Source: a bacterium (lineage in GTDB: Bacteria > Margulisbacteria > Marinamargulisbacteria > UBA817 > JAQBTH01). From it: 42,770 bases of DNA. A program made the translations under genes and the position numbers. The notes beneath the pieces are model-generated. The model was not told where the DNA came from, made no database searches, and saw only the letters and a program-made list of their open reading frames with translations. Positions within the stretch are counted from its first letter, which is position 1. The number at the start of each line of letters is the position of its first letter. Shown piece by piece: positions 1,584-28,557 of the stretch. Where the stretch lies: positions 1 through 42,770 of the forward strand of contig JAQBTH010000007.1 in NCBI GenBank assembly GCA_027623425.1. Reading direction: 5' to 3'.

Positions 1584-1973
1584 TTAAGCGTCTTGAGCGC
1601 TATCCGCATTTGGGCTTTTAGATATAAAAAATAGGCCCAATATGATTAACCCAATGGCAAACACGCGGCGGGTTGAAATTGTTTCACCCAAAAATGCCCG
1701 AGAGCCCAATAATATTATCACATAATTTAAACTTAGAAAGGGGTAGATAAACGATAGTTCATATTTAGACATCGCCACCAACCAAATCACACCACCAGAA
1801 ATAATAAGAAGCACAGACAAAATAACCATGGGGTTAAAAATCATCGTTAAAATGCCAGCAGAATCCAATGCGACATCAATTGTGTTTAGCGACCACTTCA
1901 ATAACAACTCGCCAAAACTCGCCATAATAATCGGCAACATAACCAAACATAAAAATTTCTGTAGTTTTCCCAT
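1584..1973 (-). CDS. Small EamA/SMR-like transporter subunit (ArnF/ArnE-like)
   Basis: A 129-residue protein with four predicted transmembrane helices, the size of one small-multidrug-resistance unit or half an EamA (DMT superfamily) transporter. The motif MSKYELSFIYPFLSLNYVIILL in its middle resembles the conserved 'LS.AYP...L.yv.v.l' of ArnE/ArnF and EamA proteins, and a GE residue pair precedes the last helix. It starts two bases after the stop of a related 118-residue protein, so the pair probably forms a heterodimer, as ArnE and ArnF do. Substrate unknown: a lipid-linked sugar, amino acid or drug are all possible. The tail (SPNADSAQDA) is soluble. Confidence 0.75.
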   Translation of the reverse strand: MGKLQKFLCLVMLPIIMASFGELLLKWSLNTIDVALDSAGILTMIFNPMVILSVLLIISGGVIWLVAMSKYELSFIYPFLSLNYVIILLGSRAFLGETISTRRVFAIGLIILGLFFISKSPNADSAQDA

Positions 1974-1975
1974 AG

Positions 1976-2332
1976 TTAATGACTCAAGGCTAATACGATA
2001 CTACTAAGCGCGATTAAACTAATTCCGATTATTTTGTATTTATCCAAATGTTCTTGGAACAAAAAGCGCCCCATTATAATGATAACCACGTAACAAATAC
2101 TAAATAAAGGATACGCATAACTAAGGTCAAATTGGCTTAACACCAATACCCAAAGGCCCATACTGACTAAGGCCACAACATTCGCAAACCAATAAATAGG
2201 CATGCGTAGCAATTTGATGAAGTTGGGTACAAAACTGTCTATGCCATCAAAATGCAAATGATGCACGGCAGATTTGAAGGACAAGTCCATAGCGCTTCTT
2301 ATACCGATAGCGATCCAAAGTAAAATCCACAT
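1976..2332 (-). CDS. Small EamA/SMR-like transporter subunit, partner of the downstream gene
   Basis: A 118-residue protein with four predicted transmembrane helices. Its core, LSQFDLSYAYPLFSICYVV, matches the equivalent segment of the following 129-residue protein, showing that the two are paralogues. First gene of the leftward operon ending in the aminotransferase. A GGAGG stands 12 bases before the ATG, rather far. Upstream, a TTTCCA box, a 17-base spacer and TGC-TAGACT form a reasonable promoter around 2360-2390. Family knowledge (DMT superfamily) suggests a small-molecule or undecaprenyl-linked sugar flippase. The aminotransferase neighbour allows an amino-acid exporter, but this is inference. 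Confidence 0.72.
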   Translation of the reverse strand: MWILLWIAIGIRSAMDLSFKSAVHHLHFDGIDSFVPNFIKLLRMPIYWFANVVALVSMGLWVLVLSQFDLSYAYPLFSICYVVIIIMGRFLFQEHLDKYKIIGISLIALSSIVLALSH

Positions 2333-2491
2333 AAATTTGAAGAGCCTCCAAGACGTGTGTTCAGTCTAGCAAGTTTAGGCATCCTTGGAAATAAGGTAAA
2401 TTCGCTTTCACTACACAACAGAATCAATCAATGTTAAATTCAATATGTATTCGGGCAAAACGGTGATTATAAGAAGAAACAAGGAAAAGGT

Positions 2492-4246
2492 ATGCAACGG
2501 TTTCAAGGTAAGGGTAGGGTAGCGCGATTTAAAGCGAGCATCGTATTACTGGCATTTTTGTGCGTCACAGTCGGTTGTTCATCCATCTCCAATATCAAAA
2601 CGGCGCGTTCCTCACCGGAAGCCACCACTACAGGCAGTATATCGGGGACAGCTAAACTGGTAGAAAACAACCAAACCCACGTCGTGGCCTTAGAGCGCGT
2701 TGAATCAAATGGGAATGTAACCGAAATAGAGCGTATAAATGCCGATACCAATGACACAGGCGTTCTCAACTTTAATTTTCCTAGGGTCGAAAACTGCAAT
2801 AACGCAAACTTTATGGTTGTTAGTGTGTTGGATTCAGCCGGAAATCTCCAAAGCCGCAGTTTAGTTGCTGCCCCGCCACCGGGTGAAAACATTGAAGTCG
2901 GAACCAATCGATTAACTACTGCACAAACCAATACCATTCTGGAAGGTTTTTTGGAGGCATCCACAGACAGTGCTTTTTTCGCAAGTATGGTCACCCTTTT
3001 TCAGCGCACGCCTGATATAAGTAAAGACGATTCTCCCGATTTGGTGAGAGGGCTAAAAAACATTATTCTAGGTTCAAATGGCGTGTCTGAACAGGTGTTT
3101 GATGACGTAGATACGTCTATGGAAAACGAGTTTAATAAATCGATTTTGTGTAACGATGCGCCAGATGAACGGGATTTTTCTGATGTTACAAAACTGATGA
3201 AAGAGGCAAATGCAGCCAGCGCCAGTGAAGATGCCAATGTCATTTGGCAACACACCAGCGCGCTAATGGGTGATGTACTAATAGATGCGGCGGAAAAATC
3301 AGGTATAGACCCCAGACGATTAACCGGTGTTATGGCGTTTGCTGCAAAGCAAAGTAGTGAAAATGCATCGATACAAAAGTTGCCCATTAAAGAACGCTTA
3401 AGCATCAAATTAAGCATAGAAACCATTGGGTATCGCTTGGCCTTTTCAGAATGGATCAGCAGCTATTCAAATGGAATTAAAATTCTTGGCGCGCCAAATG
3501 CCCAGCAGGAACGCTTCGCTAATATTAAAGAGGGTGTGAACGAGAGCCTTCAAATAATATACACAGACAATGCGCTGCAATTCATCACTCCAAATGAAGA
3601 CGTGTTTGAAAGAATTTTAAGTGATATGAAAAATGAGTTTGTTAAAATCCATAAGGAATTTATTGGTGACTTAGAATTAAAAAATGGTGATGTGTCAGAT
3701 ATCAAAACTGAATTCATAGAGGCTCTTGAGTCTTCGCAAAACATCATAGACACCATTTATGGGGCTAAATTCGGGCGCTTTTATCAGGACGGAATGAGCG
3801 TCAGTTCAATGAACGCAGATACCTGGCCTAATATGCTGTTGCCAATGGGTGTGGCGACTCTCTTTATAAAAGACAGAATAAAAAATGGAGGAACATTGGA
3901 ATACGCACAAGAAAAATCCAAGTTACCTAAAAATATGGGGTGGTTTAATGGCGGGAAAGGGCGTCGCAAATTTAAGGATTTTCCAGAGGGAACCCAAAGC
4001 GTTCTCGTCGCGTTAGAATTAATAAAAGATGATGTGGCCATCGCTTCACACAAACGTATTGCGGACAGGCAAGTTGCGCTATTAGAAAATGACCCACTGG
4101 CGCTGATGGCCATTGAACGGGAATTTGTGGCGGATATAAATGAGCTCTCCAAAAATATATCAGGCACGCTATCAGCAGGACTAACGCTGACGACCAAATA
4201 TAAGCAGGCGCTAATGCGTCTCCTTATTTACCCCGATCTGAAGTAA
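2492..4246 (+). CDS. Large lipoprotein of unknown function
   Basis: A 584-residue protein with a lipoprotein signal peptide: basic N-region (RFQGKGRVARFKAS), hydrophobic core and a lipobox ending at Cys29 (VTVGC). After it come a short Ser/Thr-rich linker and a beta-rich segment beginning SISGTAKLVE (about residues 48-125). That segment resembles the SGTVSGL repeats of the lipoprotein at 7995, though too weakly to prove homology. The remainder is long, mainly helical and charged, without a recognised motif. AAGGAAAAGG precedes the ATG. The gene stands alone between the leftward transporter operon and aspartokinase. Likely anchored in the inner or outer membrane facing the periplasm; no function assigned. 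Confidence 0.75.
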   Translation: MQRFQGKGRVARFKASIVLLAFLCVTVGCSSISNIKTARSSPEATTTGSISGTAKLVENNQTHVVALERVESNGNVTEIERINADTNDTGVLNFNFPRVENCNNANFMVVSVLDSAGNLQSRSLVAAPPPGENIEVGTNRLTTAQTNTILEGFLEASTDSAFFASMVTLFQRTPDISKDDSPDLVRGLKNIILGSNGVSEQVFDDVDTSMENEFNKSILCNDAPDERDFSDVTKLMKEANAASASEDANVIWQHTSALMGDVLIDAAEKSGIDPRRLTGVMAFAAKQSSENASIQKLPIKERLSIKLSIETIGYRLAFSEWISSYSNGIKILGAPNAQQERFANIKEGVNESLQIIYTDNALQFITPNEDVFERILSDMKNEFVKIHKEFIGDLELKNGDVSDIKTEFIEALESSQNIIDTIYGAKFGRFYQDGMSVSSMNADTWPNMLLPMGVATLFIKDRIKNGGTLEYAQEKSKLPKNMGWFNGGKGRRKFKDFPEGTQSVLVALELIKDDVAIASHKRIADRQVALLENDPLALMAIEREFVADINELSKNISGTLSAGLTLTTKYKQALMRLLIYPDLK

Positions 4247-14832: not shown

Positions 14833-17231
14833 TAAATATAGGGTTGAATTGGTTAAGCGGTTTAACAGTTGGGGAAATCATATTGTATTACATCGTTGTG
14901 GCAATCCCCATGGCGTATATAGCAGTGCCTTATGTACTGTGGCTTGTGTTAGCGGGCTCAATTATTTACGCGTTAGGGTTGCCGATGTTAGCATGGCAAA
15001 TCTTTGCGGTTTTCGCACTGGTAACACTTGTGCGTCCGCTACGCCGAAATATCATTTCAAGACCACTATTTTCGGCTCTAAAAGCGCTTAATTTGCTACC
15101 TGTTATTTCCGAAACGGAGCAAGCCGCTATTGATGCGGGCACCGTTTGGATTGACGGGGAATTATTTTCTGGAAAACCCAATTTCAAGCGTATTTTAAAA
15201 GAAGAAGTATACCCAACATTAAGCGCAGAGGAACAAGCCTTTTTAGATGGTCCCGTAAATAAACTATGTGCCATGGTAGACGATTTTAAAGTTACCGAAG
15301 CGGGCGATTTTCCAAAAAAAGTATGGGACTTCATTAAAAAAGAAAAATTCTTTGGCATGATTATCCAAAAAAAATATGGTGGGTTGGAGTTTTCGGCACT
15401 AGGGCATTCTGAAGTCATTGCAAAATTGGCATCCCGTTCTACCGCGTTAGCGATTACGGTCATGGTACCGAACTCATTGGGGCCAGCAGAGTTGCTTACC
15501 CACTATGGTACACAAGAACAAAAAGACTATTATTTACCCCGATTAGCAGATGGAATAGAAGTGCCGTGTTTTGGACTAACCGAACCACGTGCCGGTTCTG
15601 ATGCGGGTGCGATGTCCGCAGCTGGCGAGGTGTTTAAGGCCAAGGATGGCACGTTAATGATTCGCCTAAATTGGTCGAAGCGCTATATTACCTTATCAGG
15701 AATCTCGACGGTAATCGGCCTGGCATTTAAACTAAACGACCCCAAAAAGTTACTTGGAAAAGGGGAACATTTGGGCATCACATGCGCGTTAATACCATCG
15801 AATACGAAAGGCGTTGTGCTTGGCCGTCGCCATGACCCATTGGGCGTGCCATTCTTTAATTGCCCTACAGATGGAAGCGACGTGGAAGTGCCGTTAAGTA
15901 CGGTAATTGGTGGGGAACAAGGCGTTGGAAAAGGGTGGACCATGTTAATGGAAAGCTTAGCGGCCGGTCGCGGAATCTCCTTGCCTTCAAACTGTGCGGG
16001 TGGCGGGAAATTAGTCACCCGAACAACAGGCGCGTATGCGGCGATCAGAAAACAATTTGGTATTAATATTGGCAAATTTGAAGGTATTCAAGAAGCAATG
16101 GCTCAAATTGGAGCCATGACCTATACCCTAGATGCCTCACGTATTTTTACATGTGGCGCCATCGATCAAGGTGCAAAGCCAGCCGTTGTAACGGCAATTT
16201 GCAAATACAATGCCACCGAAATTTGGCGCGATATCATTAATCACGGTATGGATATTTTGGGTGGAGCCGCCATTTCTCGCGGTCCACGCAACATTCTAGC
16301 CAACCCCTATTTTGCAACGCCAATCAGCATCACGGTGGAAGGCGCTAATATTTTAACCCGAACGCTTATCGTATTTGGCCAAGGCGCAATTCGCTGCCAT
16401 CCGTATGTGTTGCAACAAGTTCAAGCACTGCAAAATAACGATGTGATTTTGTTTGATCTGGCATTTTGGAAACATATTGGGCATGTGGTTCGCAATAAAA
16501 ACCGTGCCATTGTTTTATATTTCACTCGCGGTCTCTTTTCCTGTGCGCCAGTTTCTAAGCCCGCTAAAAAGTACATCAAGAAATTGAATTGGGCTAGCGC
16601 CAAGTTCGCGCTTGCTGCAGATATTGCATTAGGCACTATGGGTGGAGAATTAAAACGCAAAGAAATGTTAGCTGGGCGTTTTGCTGATGTGTTTTCATGG
16701 ATGTACTTGGCCACTGCCACAATTCGTCGTTTCGAAGCAGAAGGTAGTCGCAAAGAAGATATTCCATTTATGGCATGGTCATGTGAATACGCGTTAAAGC
16801 AAATTCAAGATGGATTTCAGGGATTATTCGCCAATATGGGGCCTCTGTTTGCCATTCAAAATATCACCACGCGCATTAACCCGATTGGCTCAGGGCCGTC
16901 AGATAAATTATCTCAGAAAGTCGCTGAGCTAATGCAAATTGATGGGGACCAACGAGACCGTTTAACAACTGGAATTTATATGCCAGACACGGACACCGAA
17001 GCACTTGGTCGTTTGGATCAAGCGTTTAAAGCGGTAGCAAAAACAGAGCCGATCGCGAAGAAAATTTCAAAAGCGATTCGCAAGAAACAATTACCTAAGC
17101 AACCCATTTACATGTTGATTAAGGCGGCCAAAGACGCAGGAATCATCACCGCAGCGGAAGCAAAGGCATTGCAAGATGCCGAAAACCGCCGCTTTGATGC
17201 GATTACTGTGGATGATTTCCCGATCAAATAA
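14823..17231 (+). CDS. fadE: Membrane-associated acyl-CoA dehydrogenase (FadE type)
   Basis: Oxidises acyl-CoA to trans-2-enoyl-CoA using FAD, the first step of beta-oxidation. The protein is 802 residues, close to E. coli FadE (814). An N-terminal pair of hydrophobic helices (about 10-70) anchors it, the acyl-CoA dehydrogenase core runs from about 100 to 520 (FGLTEPRAGSDAGA, EGANILTRTLIVFGQGAIRCHP) and a long C-terminal DUF1974-type domain follows. AAAGGA precedes the ATG, which overlaps the end of fadJ by ten bases. No electron-transfer flavoprotein genes are in the window, so its electron acceptor must be encoded elsewhere. The stop overlaps the convergent orphan gene by eight bases. Confidence 0.93.
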   Translation: MEIVNIGLNWLSGLTVGEIILYYIVVAIPMAYIAVPYVLWLVLAGSIIYALGLPMLAWQIFAVFALVTLVRPLRRNIISRPLFSALKALNLLPVISETEQAAIDAGTVWIDGELFSGKPNFKRILKEEVYPTLSAEEQAFLDGPVNKLCAMVDDFKVTEAGDFPKKVWDFIKKEKFFGMIIQKKYGGLEFSALGHSEVIAKLASRSTALAITVMVPNSLGPAELLTHYGTQEQKDYYLPRLADGIEVPCFGLTEPRAGSDAGAMSAAGEVFKAKDGTLMIRLNWSKRYITLSGISTVIGLAFKLNDPKKLLGKGEHLGITCALIPSNTKGVVLGRRHDPLGVPFFNCPTDGSDVEVPLSTVIGGEQGVGKGWTMLMESLAAGRGISLPSNCAGGGKLVTRTTGAYAAIRKQFGINIGKFEGIQEAMAQIGAMTYTLDASRIFTCGAIDQGAKPAVVTAICKYNATEIWRDIINHGMDILGGAAISRGPRNILANPYFATPISITVEGANILTRTLIVFGQGAIRCHPYVLQQVQALQNNDVILFDLAFWKHIGHVVRNKNRAIVLYFTRGLFSCAPVSKPAKKYIKKLNWASAKFALAADIALGTMGGELKRKEMLAGRFADVFSWMYLATATIRRFEAEGSRKEDIPFMAWSCEYALKQIQDGFQGLFANMGPLFAIQNITTRINPIGSGPSDKLSQKVAELMQIDGDQRDRLTTGIYMPDTDTEALGRLDQAFKAVAKTEPIAKKISKAIRKKQLPKQPIYMLIKAAKDAGIITAAEAKALQDAENRRFDAITVDDFPIK

Positions 17232-18508: not shown

Positions 18509-18545
18509 TTCACGGATGGGGCGGGAATGGATTATACTAGTGTCA
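18509..18545 (+). promoter_or_regulatory. cstA promoter giving a leaderless start
   Basis: TTCACG (18509-18514), 18-base spacer and TATACT (18533-18538). The predicted transcription start is 18545, the A of the second ATG in the frame. Confidence 0.5.
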
Positions 18546-20359
18546 TGAACGCCCTATTCATTATTGCAGTCACATTTACAGGTTACATTGTGGCATACAA
18601 CACCTATGGAAAATGGGTCGCACGAAAGGTATTCAAAATAAACCCAAATCGGGAAACACCGGCTGTAACAAAAAACGACGGACACGATTACGTACCCACA
18701 GATAAGCAGGTTGTATTTGGTCATCATTTCACTAGTATCGCAGGAACAGGGCCAATTGTGGGGCCAGCCATTGGTGTGATTTGGGGGTGGTTACCGGCTG
18801 TACTCTGGGTGTTCATTGGCGCTATTTTTATGGGGGCGGTGCACGATTTAGGTGCGCTAATTATTAGTTTAAGGCACCAAGGTAAGTCCATCGCTGACAT
18901 TACTGCAAAGATCATTAACAAACGGGTACGGCGCATTTTCTTTCTTATTATTTTTCTGGCATTACTAATCGTAATTGCGATTTTTGGTCTGGTCATCGCC
19001 ATTATATTTAGCATGTTTCCCGAATCCGTATTACCAGTTTGGGCAGAGATTCCTATTGCCATGGCGCTCGGTTGGGCGGTATACAAACGCGGCGCCAGTT
19101 TAAAAACAGCCACGGCACTTGCGGTATTTGCCATGTACGTCACCGTGGCCATTGGTCATTATCTTCCCATCACCCTCGATCTTTCTGCATTCACATCACA
19201 TTCTCATATTGTCCAAACCACCTCCGTCCCCCCTGCGGCCTCTGTCATCCCCAACTTGATTGGGGATCCATTCCGCTCACTTCTATCCTTTATTGCAAAC
19301 ATTCCAGCAACCGGTTTATGGACCATCATTCTTTTAGTCTATGCGTTCTTTGCATCCACCATGCCGGTCACGACGCTGTTGCAACCGCGCGATTACATTA
19401 ATGCCTGGCAACTCTACATTGCGCTAGGCGTGCTTATGGCAGGGGTGTTGGTTTCGGGTTTTACAGGCCAGTTAACGGTGGCCGCTCCGATGCTAAACGC
19501 CCATCCAGCAGGCGCGCCGCCCATGTGGCCATTTTTGTTTATCACCATTTCCTGTGGTGCCGTTTCTGGCTTTCATTCTTTGGTATGTTCAGGCACAACC
19601 GCCAAACAGCTAAGTAACGAAGCCCATGCGCGTTTTGTTGGCTACGGTGCCATGCTGATTGAATCGGCACTAGCTGTTATTGTCATCGTGGCAGTTACTG
19701 CCGGTATTGCCATTGCATATGAAACAAGTGCGGGCACCATACTAACTGGCGCATCAGCCTGGCAAGCACATTATGGCTCGTGGGCGGCCTCCGCTGGCTT
19801 GGGCTCAAAAATCTCTGCCGTTGTGGTAGGAACAGCCAATATGATGGCCAGCGTGGGCATTCCAAAATCATTGGGCATCGTGATTATGGGCGTGTTTATT
19901 GCGTCTTTTGCTGGTACCACACTAGATACTTCCACTCGCATTCAGCGCTATATCATTACCGAACTGTTCGATGGCACCGTGTTTAGAGCCTACATTAATC
20001 GATGGTCTGCAACCGCAATCGCAGTGTGCACGGCGGCGGCGCTCGCCTTTTCATCGGGGGCCGATGGAAAGGGCGCGTTAACGCTATGGCCCATGTTTGG
20101 GGCGGTAAATCAGCTTTTAGGGGCCCTAGCATTACTGGTAGCCACTATCTACCTACGCCGCCGCACCGCCGGCCTAAAGTACCTTGTAACCGGTCTACCG
20201 TTCTTATTTATGATCGTTATGACACTCTGGGCGGCCATCGCGAACCAGCTCCAATTTATAGCAGCAGGCCAAACAGTGCTAGTGATGATTAATGGGGCAA
20301 TAGTACTCTTGGCACTATTAATGATACTCGAATCCAGTCGGTTATTTGGCCATCGATAA
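18545..20359 (+). CDS. cstA: CstA-family carbon starvation / peptide-pyruvate transporter
   Basis: Inner-membrane transporter of the CstA family, known to take up peptides or pyruvate under carbon limitation. It has 604 residues and about 16-18 transmembrane helices. Family motifs: HHFTSIAGTGPIVGPAIGVIWGW, GAVHDLGALIISLRHQGKSI, LLQPRDYINAWQLY, FHSLVCSGTTAKQL and FAGTTLDTSTRIQRY. The start at ATG 18545 gives MNALFIIAVTF, as in the family; ATG 18527 lies upstream of the -10 box and would not be transcribed. A palindromic repeat (19244-19269) is inserted in frame in a loop around residues 234-242, within a region (SHSHIVQTTSVPPAAS...) absent from the E. coli protein as I remember it. Confidence 0.9.
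   Translation: MNALFIIAVTFTGYIVAYNTYGKWVARKVFKINPNRETPAVTKNDGHDYVPTDKQVVFGHHFTSIAGTGPIVGPAIGVIWGWLPAVLWVFIGAIFMGAVHDLGALIISLRHQGKSIADITAKIINKRVRRIFFLIIFLALLIVIAIFGLVIAIIFSMFPESVLPVWAEIPIAMALGWAVYKRGASLKTATALAVFAMYVTVAIGHYLPITLDLSAFTSHSHIVQTTSVPPAASVIPNLIGDPFRSLLSFIANIPATGLWTIILLVYAFFASTMPVTTLLQPRDYINAWQLYIALGVLMAGVLVSGFTGQLTVAAPMLNAHPAGAPPMWPFLFITISCGAVSGFHSLVCSGTTAKQLSNEAHARFVGYGAMLIESALAVIVIVAVTAGIAIAYETSAGTILTGASAWQAHYGSWAASAGLGSKISAVVVGTANMMASVGIPKSLGIVIMGVFIASFAGTTLDTSTRIQRYIITELFDGTVFRAYINRWSATAIAVCTAAALAFSSGADGKGALTLWPMFGAVNQLLGALALLVATIYLRRRTAGLKYLVTGLPFLFMIVMTLWAAIANQLQFIAAGQTVLVMINGAIVLLALLMILESSRLFGHR
19244..19269. repeat. Palindromic element copy 1, inside cstA
   Basis: GTC + ATCCCCAA, five-base loop CTTGA, TTGGGGAT + CC: a perfect 8-bp hairpin flanked by GTC and CC. 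Copy 2 lies in leuS (27437-27463). The two stems differ at two pairs, both with compensating changes. Confidence 0.7.
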
Positions 20360-20665
20360 AAGCCAGTTTACAGATCATGATTTAAGCGCCGTAATTGAAG
20401 GAGGCTGTTTTACTCCCAAAATAGTAGGCCCAGGCACTCTCGGGAGAGGGTCTCTTCTATCCGGCCTAACTTGGGGCAGGGCCTCTCATTTCAGTTGGGC
20501 TAGCCGGTCGTACGACAGGCCGTGGTGTAATTCGATCCATAACAGGCCGTGGTGTAATTCGATGCATAAGAGTCTCCTTTAATCGAGTGTAAAAATTAAT
20601 GCATTCCAGTATATATGTACTATCGCCTATAGTTTAAATCAGATTTCATTTTTCCAGGTATACCA
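20360..20665. other. Intergenic region between cstA and fluC with repeats, no convincing gene
   Basis: About 300 bases without a supported gene. It contains a CTCTC-GG-GAGAG inverted repeat near 20439, an imperfect inverted repeat (CCGGC at 20461-20465 with GCCGG at 20503-20507, enclosing AACT/AGTT) and a 27-base tandem duplication (20515-20568). The open frame across 20346-20582 overlaps the cstA end, has Trp/Cys/His-rich repeat-derived sequence and is probably not translated. No T-tailed terminator is visible. Confidence 0.6.
20515..20568. repeat. Tandem duplication of a 27-base unit
   Basis: Two adjacent copies, 20515-20541 and 20542-20568, each beginning ACAGGCCGTGGTGTAATTCG. They differ at a single base (CGATCCATA versus CGATGCATA). 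Confidence 0.9.
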
Positions 20666-25292: not shown

Positions 25293-26120
25293 ATGAATAT
25301 TAATTATTTAATAATATGTTTTGTGGCCGCTGTGTTGTTGTCCTGCACGGGAATAATTGACGATTCCGATGAAGACAGCGGGGCATTTTCTGACTACTTT
25401 AATAAAAAGGCCTCTGTGTTTGGCATCGATGTGTATGCAAGACCTGATGTCACCACCGCTAACTTAATTCGCTCCGCTAGTATTATGGCAGAGTACTTAG
25501 ATAGTGATGAAGATGGTGTGCCTAATTCCCAAGCAGTAGCCGATAGTGTTGCGAATAATGGTATGTTGGGGATATTTGTGGACGCAGATGATGCAGATAC
25601 TATTTTTGCTGCTGCCGGAAGCCTATTGAATGGCATGCAAAATTTGAATCAAGATGAAATCGTGTCTCCCAATGGAACTGATAGTCAATTCGATGCAAGT
25701 TTGGAAGAAATTTTACACCTTGTTACCCAGCAAGGGCATTCTCGGGTGTTTAGTGAATTAGCAGAATCACCGAGTTCCAATTTAGCGAACGCAATGGATG
25801 CTGCCAGAGGTGGTTATTTTGACTCTGTTCCCGACCCATATCCAGATGACGCCTGGTATAGTTATGATGATGAAACATGTGATTACACTTGCCAAATTAC
25901 CGAATATTTTTATTGGGGCATCACGTCCTATTTAGGCGGACAACAATTTTCTGGACGACTGTCTCAAATTGACAATGAGTGGAAACTCAACACAACAGCT
26001 AAAATTACAGCATCGGATAACGCACTTGAGGCCATTCTGACCAATACAACATTTAAATTACCAACAGCTTTACCAAACGGCATCTATGATGGCTTTGAAA
26101 TTACTGTAGAGTCTATCTAA
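25293..26120 (+). CDS. Acidic lipoprotein of unknown function with a calcium-type loop
   Basis: A 275-residue protein with a lipobox ending at Cys18 (LLSC) and an acidic mature part. [11 protein letters not shown] (about residues 69-79) has the D-x-D-x-D-G spacing of calcium-binding loops. Further conserved-looking blocks are [46 protein letters not shown] and [16 protein letters not shown] believe it belongs to an uncharacterised family of secreted proteins common in marine bacteria, but cannot name it. The Glu/His-rich EEILH...GH block could bind metal; this is inference. No Shine-Dalgarno sequence is visible before the ATG. Convergent with leuS with an eight-base overlap. Confidence 0.7.
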
Positions 26121-28557
26121 CGACGATATTTAAAATCTTGTTGGGCACATAAATGATTTTTACAATGGTTTTTCCATCTGTGTGTGCCGATATTTTCTCG
26201 CTTTGTTGGGCCAACGCCTCAACATTGTCTTGAGATGCATCACGGGCAACGTCGAGTTTGTCACGCACTTTTCCATTAACTTGCACCACAAGTGTCACCG
26301 ATTCATCCACCGTTTTTGCCGCATCATATACCGGCCATTCGCTCCCATGAATGCTGCCAGTGCCCCCCAATTCTTGCCACAACTCTTCGGCCATAAACGG
26401 TGCAAAGGGCGCCAATAACTGTGCGAGTACCTTCACCGATTCGTCATCCGCGCCATTCTTGTACATATGGTTTACATATTCCATTAGCTTACTGATGGCC
26501 GTGTTGTATTGAAACCGTTCAATATCCTCGCTCACACCTTTTATCGCCTTGTGGCGTATTAGTTCCAGTTGCGCGGCATCCTTTACAGGATAGTCCGCCC
26601 GTTCCGTGCCCAACTTAAACGCGCGCTTTAAAAATCGAAAGCTACCTTCAACACCTTCATCGGACCAATCTAAGTCACGTTCTACAGGCGCACCAAATAA
26701 TATAAATAAGCGCGCGGTGTCGGCCCCGTACTGGTCAATAATAGCGCCAGGGTCCACCGTGTTGCCAAGGCTTTTGCTCATCTTTGTGCCATCTTTAATC
26801 ACCATGCCTTGGGTTAACAGCCGTTCAAAGGGCTCATTCACATCTACTAATCCTAAATCCCGCAATACTTTAGTAAAAAATCGCGCATACAACAAATGCA
26901 ATACCGCATGTTCAACGCCACCAATGTATTGGCCCACAGGCATCCATTTCGACGCGTCTTCCTTATTAAAAGGAGCGGTGTCGCAGTGTGGGGAACAGTA
27001 CCGCAAGAAATACCAGCTTGAATCCACAAAGGTATCCATTGTATCGGTTTCTCTCGTTGCGGCATTTCCACAAGTGGGGCAGGTGGTGTTGACGAAATCA
27101 TCTACGGAATCTAGAGGGTTGCCTGTTCCTTTAAAACTTACATTTTTAGGCAGCTCAATCGGCAGCTGATCCTCTGGGACAGGTACCGCACCGCAGGCGT
27201 TGCAATATATAATAGGTATGGGCGTGCCCCAATACCGTTGACGGGATACGAGCCAGTCCCGAAGTCTGAAATTAGTGGTTTTATGCCCCAATGTACGTGT
27301 TTCAACAACCTCAGATACCACATCCTTAAATGCAGCGCTATCCATCCCGTTCCAGGCGGAATTCCATAACGCACTATCCTCTTGCGGTAACATTACACCT
27401 AACTCTGTGTATGCCTCCGTCATTCCCGCGCCCTCCGTCATTCCCGACCCCGATCGGGAATCCCCCTCATTCGGCGCAATCACCTGTTTAATTGCTAATC
27501 CATGTGTGTTGGCAAATTCAAAATCCCGAGTATCATGTGCCGGCACCGCCATAACAGCGCCAGTGCCATACCCCATCAACACGTAATCACTTATCCAAAT
27601 AGGGTGTTTTTCACCTGTGAAGGGGCTCACAAAATACTTGCCAGTAAACACGCCGTCTTTGGCGCCTTCGGAATTGCGTTCCATAGTGCTTTTTTTGCGG
27701 GCCTTCTCAATAAATGCCAATGTGTCTGACTCATAGTCAGTGCCCGTTACCCATTCAATCACTTTTGGGTGTTCAGGTGCCAGTACCATATAGGTAATGC
27801 CAAATACCGTATCAGGGCGCGTTGTGTATACCCGAATTGGGTCTGAGTCACCCACAACTTCAAAATCAATTTCTACACCGTGGGACTTTCCGATCCAATT
27901 GCGTTGCATGATCCGAACGCGCTCTGGCCATCCATTTAATGTATCAATATCACTTAGTAATTCATCTGCATAATCTGTGATTTTAAAGAACCATTGCTCC
28001 AAATTCTTTAAGATAACAGGGTGTTTGCAGCGCCAACACTTACCATCTTCAACCTGCTCATTTGCCAATACGGTGGCGCAATCGTCGCACCAATTTACAG
28101 GGGCTTTCTTTTTATAGGCCAATCCTTTTTTTAGCATTTGAATAAAAATCCATTGGCTCCATCGGTAATAGTTAGGTAGGCACGTGGCCACCTCGCGATC
28201 CCAATCGTAACTAAGTCCCAATCGGGTTTGCTGATCTTTCATTTCTGCAATGCGCGCCAACGTCCAGGTTTCTGGGTGCGTGTCGTGCTTTTTGGCGGCA
28301 TTTTCTGCCGGCAATCCCAGGCTGTCGTAACCCATTGGGTACAACACGTTGCGGCCTTTCATTCTATGATAACGGGCACACACATCCCCAAGCGAGTAGT
28401 TGCGAACATGCCCCATGTGCAGTTTTCCTGAAGGGTAGGGGAACATTTCTAACACATATATGTTGCGCTTGGCGTCATCGTCACCGGTTTTGTAAACACC
28501 CGACTGTTGCCAAGATTTTATCCATTTATTTTCGATGTCCAGTGGCTTGTATTCCAT
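26113..28557 (-). CDS. leuS: Leucyl-tRNA synthetase
   Basis: Charges tRNA-Leu. 814 residues, class Ia, normal for bacterial LeuRS. Signatures: [14 protein letters not shown] (HIGH), a Cys-rich CDDCATV...CWRCKHP zinc ribbon, the CP1 editing domain with [13 protein letters not shown] and [19 protein letters not shown], a second Cys cluster (CNACGAV...CPTCGN), [10 protein letters not shown], and [10 protein letters not shown]. Around residues 365-381 the editing domain carries an extra Gly/Ser/Met-rich stretch encoded by a palindromic repeat and a duplicated 12-base unit (27415-27463). No Shine-Dalgarno sequence is seen; a -10 box lies nine bases before the ATG. Convergent with the acidic lipoprotein, divergent from rpsO. 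Confidence 0.95.
27415..27463. repeat. Palindromic element copy 2 with a duplicated arm, inside leuS
   Basis: The core 27437-27463 is GTC + ATTCCCGA, six-base loop, TCGGGAAT + CC (8-bp stem). Immediately before it CTCCGTCATTCCCG occurs twice at an 18-base period (27415-27428 and 27433-27446). The leuS reading frame stays open through the whole element. Confidence 0.75.

Follow-up and report, generated by a model that had tools for sequence, protein, structure and literature searches.

Short palindromes of the REP type are known to lie within genes, and the question addressed here is how such elements grow and why genes survive them. It is raised by a perfect hairpin inside cstA, with a partner inside leuS, on the 42,770-nucleotide stretch of bacterial DNA that was analysed as a whole (contig JAQBTH010000007.1 of assembly GCA_027623425.1; hereafter the window). 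The best explanation as a whole, to which we assign a probability of about 0.8, is that both hairpins are CGTC-type REPs inserted into coding sequence, and that members of this family gain half-units by strand-specific slippage. The features of the window that bear on it are the following.

18527..20359, + strand: cstA, carbon starvation protein/pyruvate transporter family, 610 aa
19181..19285, + strand: in-frame cstA insert of ~35 codons, residues ~219-253, edges approximate
19226..19243, + strand: possible decayed half-unit, GTCCCCCCTGCGGCCTCT, immediately before the cstA REP
19244..19269, + strand: CGTC-type REP copy in cstA, with tag TGTC, 8-bp stem, 5-nt loop and tail CCA
26113..28557, - strand: leuS, leucyl-tRNA synthetase, 814 aa (PDB 1h3n, E=1e-252; Pfam)
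27419..27436, + strand: half-unit GTCATTCCCGCGCCCTCC, left arm plus a repeat of the flank CCTCC, 18 bp
27437..27463, + strand: CGTC-type REP copy in leuS, with tag CGTC, 8-bp stem and 6-nt loop

As described in the first-pass annotation, positions 19244-19269 (GTCATCCCCAACTTGATTGGGGATCC) read directly as a perfect 8-bp stem, ATCCCCAA/TTGGGGAT, around a 5-nt loop, in the layout GTC-ATCCCCAA-CTTGA-TTGGGGAT-CC. The partner at 27437-27463 (GTCATTCCCGACCCCGATCGGGAATCC) forms an 8-bp stem around a 6-nt loop, and the two stems indeed differ at two positions, 3 and 7, with both differences compensated on the opposite arm. The expected number of matches to a pattern of such shape in shuffled windows is 0.00; an Rfam search of the window gave no match. 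The cstA copy lies in sense orientation and encodes VIPNLIGDP, and the leuS copy is antisense to its gene and is read as 10 residues in LeuS. Directly before the latter lies a half-copy, overlooked in the first-pass annotation, which keeps the frame and is read as EGAGMT; of the 18 nt immediately before the cstA copy, 12 are identical to it, which no more than hints at a decayed half-unit.

A further check proposed for the palindrome was a search for more copies. In this fragmented draft genome (1.86 Mb, 119 contigs, 90% completeness), the pattern GTCATYCCS-N-SGGRATC, applied to both strands, retrieved 52 exact copies, 26 of which also fit a tighter pattern, as compared to 0 for the reversed pattern that served as control. 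Most copies have an 8-bp stem and a 5-nt loop of the CTTGA type, a few a 4-nt loop. Among 18 distinct copies with a 5-nt loop, 99.3% of the stem cells are paired and 23 changes are two-sided, values that were reached in 0/500 shuffles and in none of the slid registers; the covariation of the stems is strong. The hairpin in cstA is thus almost certainly one of at least 52 dispersed CGTC-tagged REP copies, many of which reside in frame inside genes, and the proposed dispersed family that tolerates in-frame coding insertion is borne out by these copies together with the relatives of CstA discussed below. Dispersal and empty sites in relatives also lead us to infer mobility of the family, to which no transposase has been linked.

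CGTC REPs were defined by Di Nocera et al. 2013 (PMC3733652), who reported intragenic copies, many of them in replication and repair genes, and no dedicated transposase. The present family resembles the CGTC-2-like and CGTC-1-like REPs in its unpaired C/TGTC tag, its 8-bp stem starting with AT, its 4-5-nt loop and its CC(A) tail, as well as in its tens of dispersed copies, in intragenic copies that encode peptides and in the lack of a linked transposase. The tag of CGTC REPs is CGTC, often TGTC or CCTC, and we found CGTC in leuS and most other copies and TGTC in cstA; the stem (8-9 bp with A-T pairs at positions 1 and 2) is 8 bp long here, with invariant A-U and U-A as its first two pairs in 18/18 distinct copies; the loop (4-5 nt) has 5 nt in cstA and most copies and 4 nt in some, the leuS-type loop of 6 nt being outside the usual range; and the tail (CCA) is CCA in cstA, CCC in leuS and CC in most copies. 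The family differs in host, as the abstract of PMC3733652 names Proteobacteria, Cyanobacteria and Planctomycetes whereas the present genome belongs to the WOR-1 phylum, and in arrangement: head-to-tail pairs are negligible in that study, whereas neighbours within about 100 bp form 8 head-to-tail, 4 head-to-head and 2 tail-to-tail pairs here. Head-to-head dimers, a typical although not defining arrangement of CGTC REPs, therefore do not prevail. Since R. conorii RPE-4 and RPE-6, which lie in frame within genes, are themselves CGTC REPs (CGTC-4 and CGTC-1; PMC3733652), the Rickettsia elements and the REPs to which the palindrome had originally been compared are one superfamily here. RPE-4 and RPE-6 differ from the present family, which occurs mainly in the form with an 8-bp stem and 5-nt loop, bears half-unit arrays and belongs to an unrelated phylum. 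GTAG REPs accompanied by a RAYT (REPtrons) are likewise short, tagged, dispersed palindromes that are sometimes intragenic; however, we rejected this assignment because the tag here is C/TGTC and the Y1_Tnp gene of the genome is not flanked by the palindromes.

A comparison of the flanks of all copies revealed chains with the layout X / GTCATYCCCRA..X / GTCATYCCCRA..X / full REP. Many copies thus have tandem half-units in front of them, exclusively on the GTC side, according to the scheme X-[GTC-leftarm-X]n-REP, in which X is the locus's own flank. Genome-wide, 37 half-units were found (38 matches minus one full copy) versus 0 in the reversed control. At 22 loci, each contributing one pair, 5.27 of the 10 nt that precede successive tags are identical, compared to 3.10 when shuffled between loci (0/5000), and the longest shared flank run is 5.8 versus 4.24 (0/2000). 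The arrays are polar, with 19 left-arm units upstream versus a single right-arm unit downstream, and their lengths are multiples of three in 22/24 cases within genes versus 2/11 in intergenic regions (p=3.7e-5; loci assigned by hand, three ambiguous units left out). Microhomology between left arm and upstream flank, which simple slippage would lead one to expect, was not above chance as a general rule (4.24 versus 3.99, 200/2000), single loci having 4-7 nt. In some half-units, e.g. on contig C43, the arm subtype is unlike that of the adjoining full copy; decay, or a template switch from another copy, would explain this better than a simple duplication. Such arrays were found neither in the portion of the text of PMC3733652 that was searched nor by a keyword search of the open literature, which is no proof of absence; while the element itself is known, the polar, flank-duplicating arrays look new.

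The half-units also follow a strand rule, which was scored on contigs with an absolute GC skew >0.1 only. The GTC strand coincides with the C-rich strand at all 16 half-unit loci, which are spread over 12 contigs (15/15 without the doubtful half-unit at C14:23847), whereas copies without half-units are split 8:7 (Fisher p=0.0024, binomial 3e-5). This analysis was chosen after the copies of one contig had been seen to share their orientation as a tendency, and is accordingly exploratory, the rule having been shown in one genome only. On skewed contigs with genes in both directions, the sign of the GC3 skew agrees between + and - genes, the exception being a weak + value on C16, indicating that the skew reads the replication strand and not the coding strand; the half-units contain far too few C residues to create it. 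The leading strand is usually G-rich. If this is assumed, the GTC strand corresponds to the lagging-type nascent strand, a point for which gene orientation gives no confirmation. Ten element-bearing contigs, the window included, have near-zero skew, and the rule is not applicable to the two copies of the window. The element-bearing contigs fall into two GC3-skew classes of similar GC, with absolute values of about 0.2-0.45 or near zero over long stretches, the latter seen in C41 (the window), C60, C45, C46, C108 and C118; a mixed bin, unusual replication or another cause are possible reasons.

These observations are best accounted for by a putative strand-specific slippage of the lagging strand as it is replicated through the palindrome, a mechanism to which we give roughly even odds and by which coding inserts would be lengthened. 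Copies would spread through the genome, and half-units would grow after insertion: the C-rich (lagging-type) nascent strand would copy the flank X and then GTC and the left arm, synthesis would abort inside the palindrome and restart back at X, and one half-unit would be gained per slip. Slippage after copying of flank, tag and left arm would yield the observed one-sided polarity, and within genes selection would keep multiples of three. A wider formulation, to which we give slightly less than even odds, is that CGTC REPs are replication-strand-specific generators of new coding sequence, which in one fork orientation give rise to in-frame half-unit minisatellites in essential genes. The anatomy of the arrays amounts to a directional, frame-filtered and strand-specific signature, which is open to a laboratory test with the palindrome.

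Alternatively, REPs and half-units might be deposited together by a transposase of the Y1 (IS200/RAYT-like) type that works on single-stranded DNA, the half-units being abortive insertion products. We consider this unlikely, although GTAG REPs are tied to RAYTs (PMC3733652) and the genome has one Y1_Tnp gene (C97:8379-8627, E=5.9e-9). An identical 48-bp composite of half-unit and REP in mutS and pheT (G000:C58:13440-13487 and 15926-15973) would also suit an enzyme, as such composites can move or be copied and, from their identity, may have been copied as a unit. However, no REP occurs within the 11 kb examined around the Y1_Tnp gene, CGTC REPs have been reported without a linked transposase, and if an enzyme cut the GTC strand on the lagging template, this strand would be expected to be G-rich, the opposite of what is seen at the half-unit loci. 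The Y1 transposase domain of a 318-aa protein of C97 (L106:5323-6276, - strand; G000:C97) is C-terminal, the N-terminal part being unassigned, and no REPs flank this protein. Somewhat less probable still is the repeated, independent insertion of complete REPs at a single site with subsequent loss of right arms, for which the differing arm subtypes within some chains may be counted; the duplication of locus-specific flanks between tags, the one-sided loss of 19:1 and the strict strand rule all argue against such a scenario.

The fate of the genes themselves is best illustrated by CstA, in which the Pfam CstA domain (PF02554, E=3.1e-134) covers residues 8-569 and which is 55-63% identical to 13 same-class relatives. 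An alignment with close relatives had been proposed to see whether these possess residues around 225-250. A segment of ~35 residues (219-253) is absent in 17/17 relatives aligned with MAFFT, which align gap-free there, and tblastn matches in relatives adjoin each other at this point. The REP makes up part of the insert, and a phage search with the insert gave no match. An AlphaFold model based on 18 sequences (pLDDT 84.5, pTM 0.85) has residues 227-245 as the only segment with a pLDDT<50, located between two hydrophobic helices. The insert is thus predicted to form a disordered loop, consistent with the loop position that the first-pass annotation had assigned to it. The leuS REP falls into the editing region, where the loop concerned already differs in length between relatives, and this insertion is therefore less clear-cut than that in CstA and provides no clean case of presence and absence. 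LeuS (26113-28557) has a second, non-REP extra stretch of ~8 residues, PQEDSALW, at residues of about 393-400, which is absent from relatives.

On the contigs examined, 36/59 copies reside inside ORFs of at least 250 aa, AddAB-like genes among them. Some of these ORFs overrun the probable gene boundary on one side or the other (the C22 DnaE-like 3' end, the C43 ZnuA-like gene, AroE on C45, and C60), so that true coding inserts are fewer than 36. Clear inserts, i.e. those with conserved-domain matches (Pfam/PDB) that flank the element on either side or run across it, were identified in ValS, MutS, PheT (two copies), TsaD (three), RimO, a short-chain dehydrogenase, MutL, CysS, a FAD-linked oxidase, NadB, a Lnb-domain protein, PanC, CstA, LeuS and a UvrD-type helicase (AddA-like). 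In TsaD, for example, residues 230 to 273 of the query correspond to a step from 221 to 231 in the PDB homologue, and in ValS residues 465 to 522 correspond to a step from 591 to 602. Judged by relatives that lack the residues (CstA) and by PDB homologues (TsaD, ValS, MutS and others), these appear to be in-frame inserts in otherwise conserved proteins, the mode known from the Rickettsia elements, and they survive in conserved genes because the frame is kept and the loop is tolerant. Tolerated segments of repeat origin have thus been added to essential proteins, such as mismatch-repair proteins and tRNA synthetases, in a phylum about which little is known. In 25/36 cases the copy is antisense to the ORF, an excess that is observed although in either sense two of the three frames are open. 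The REP-bearing genes mutS, mutL, addA-like, addB-like and the dnaE-like 3' end belong to DNA repair or replication, in keeping with the remark in PMC3733652 on copies in such genes.

It might also be argued that the palindromes persist because they serve a purpose in RNA or protein, whether as mRNA hairpins, as pausing sites or as useful linkers, since REPs located outside genes are able to function as elements of transcripts (PMC3733652) and the stems are kept by compensatory change. Yet compensatory change would also arise from copies of different source variants, and the inserts, which occur in unrelated proteins, in both senses and in two reading frames, are missing from relatives and, in the CstA model, disordered; we regard a retained function, as opposed to tolerated insertion, as very improbable. 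Chance palindromes in two genes, with their short length as the sole point in favour, are refuted by 52 copies as opposed to 0 control matches.

The LeuS loci of two relatives are identical to named records, WOR-1 bacterium RIFOXYB2_FULL_42_35 in the case of G052 (same phylum) and the Saanich Inlet MAG SI072_bin15 in that of G013 (same class), which places the window in the phylum to which WOR-1 belongs (Margulisbacteria). Within the phylum, the distribution of the family is patchy: no copies were found in the four relatives of the same order, nor in the genomes whose LeuS is most similar, G008, G009 and G013, and G006, G024, G037 and G038 have 17-95 copies each. Half-units occur in 7 other genomes of the phylum. 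In G024, these are intergenic, shared between loci and present in both orientations on one contig, and as the flanks are not duplicated, we rejected the notion that they represent the same phenomenon. The 61 copies of G024 (e.g. on C49, C81 and C113) are largely arranged as head-to-head dimers about 50 bp apart. In the genome under study, a head-to-head REP pair is situated at a frame change of a polyketide synthase (L091:1752-1878, G000:C15), where a ketosynthase ORF (313-1878) meets an acyltransferase ORF (1752-4199); either a REP-linked frameshift or an assembly error is possible. Finally, a 27-bp tandem repeat, with two copies at 96%, is located at 20515-20568 of the window, between cstA and the next gene.
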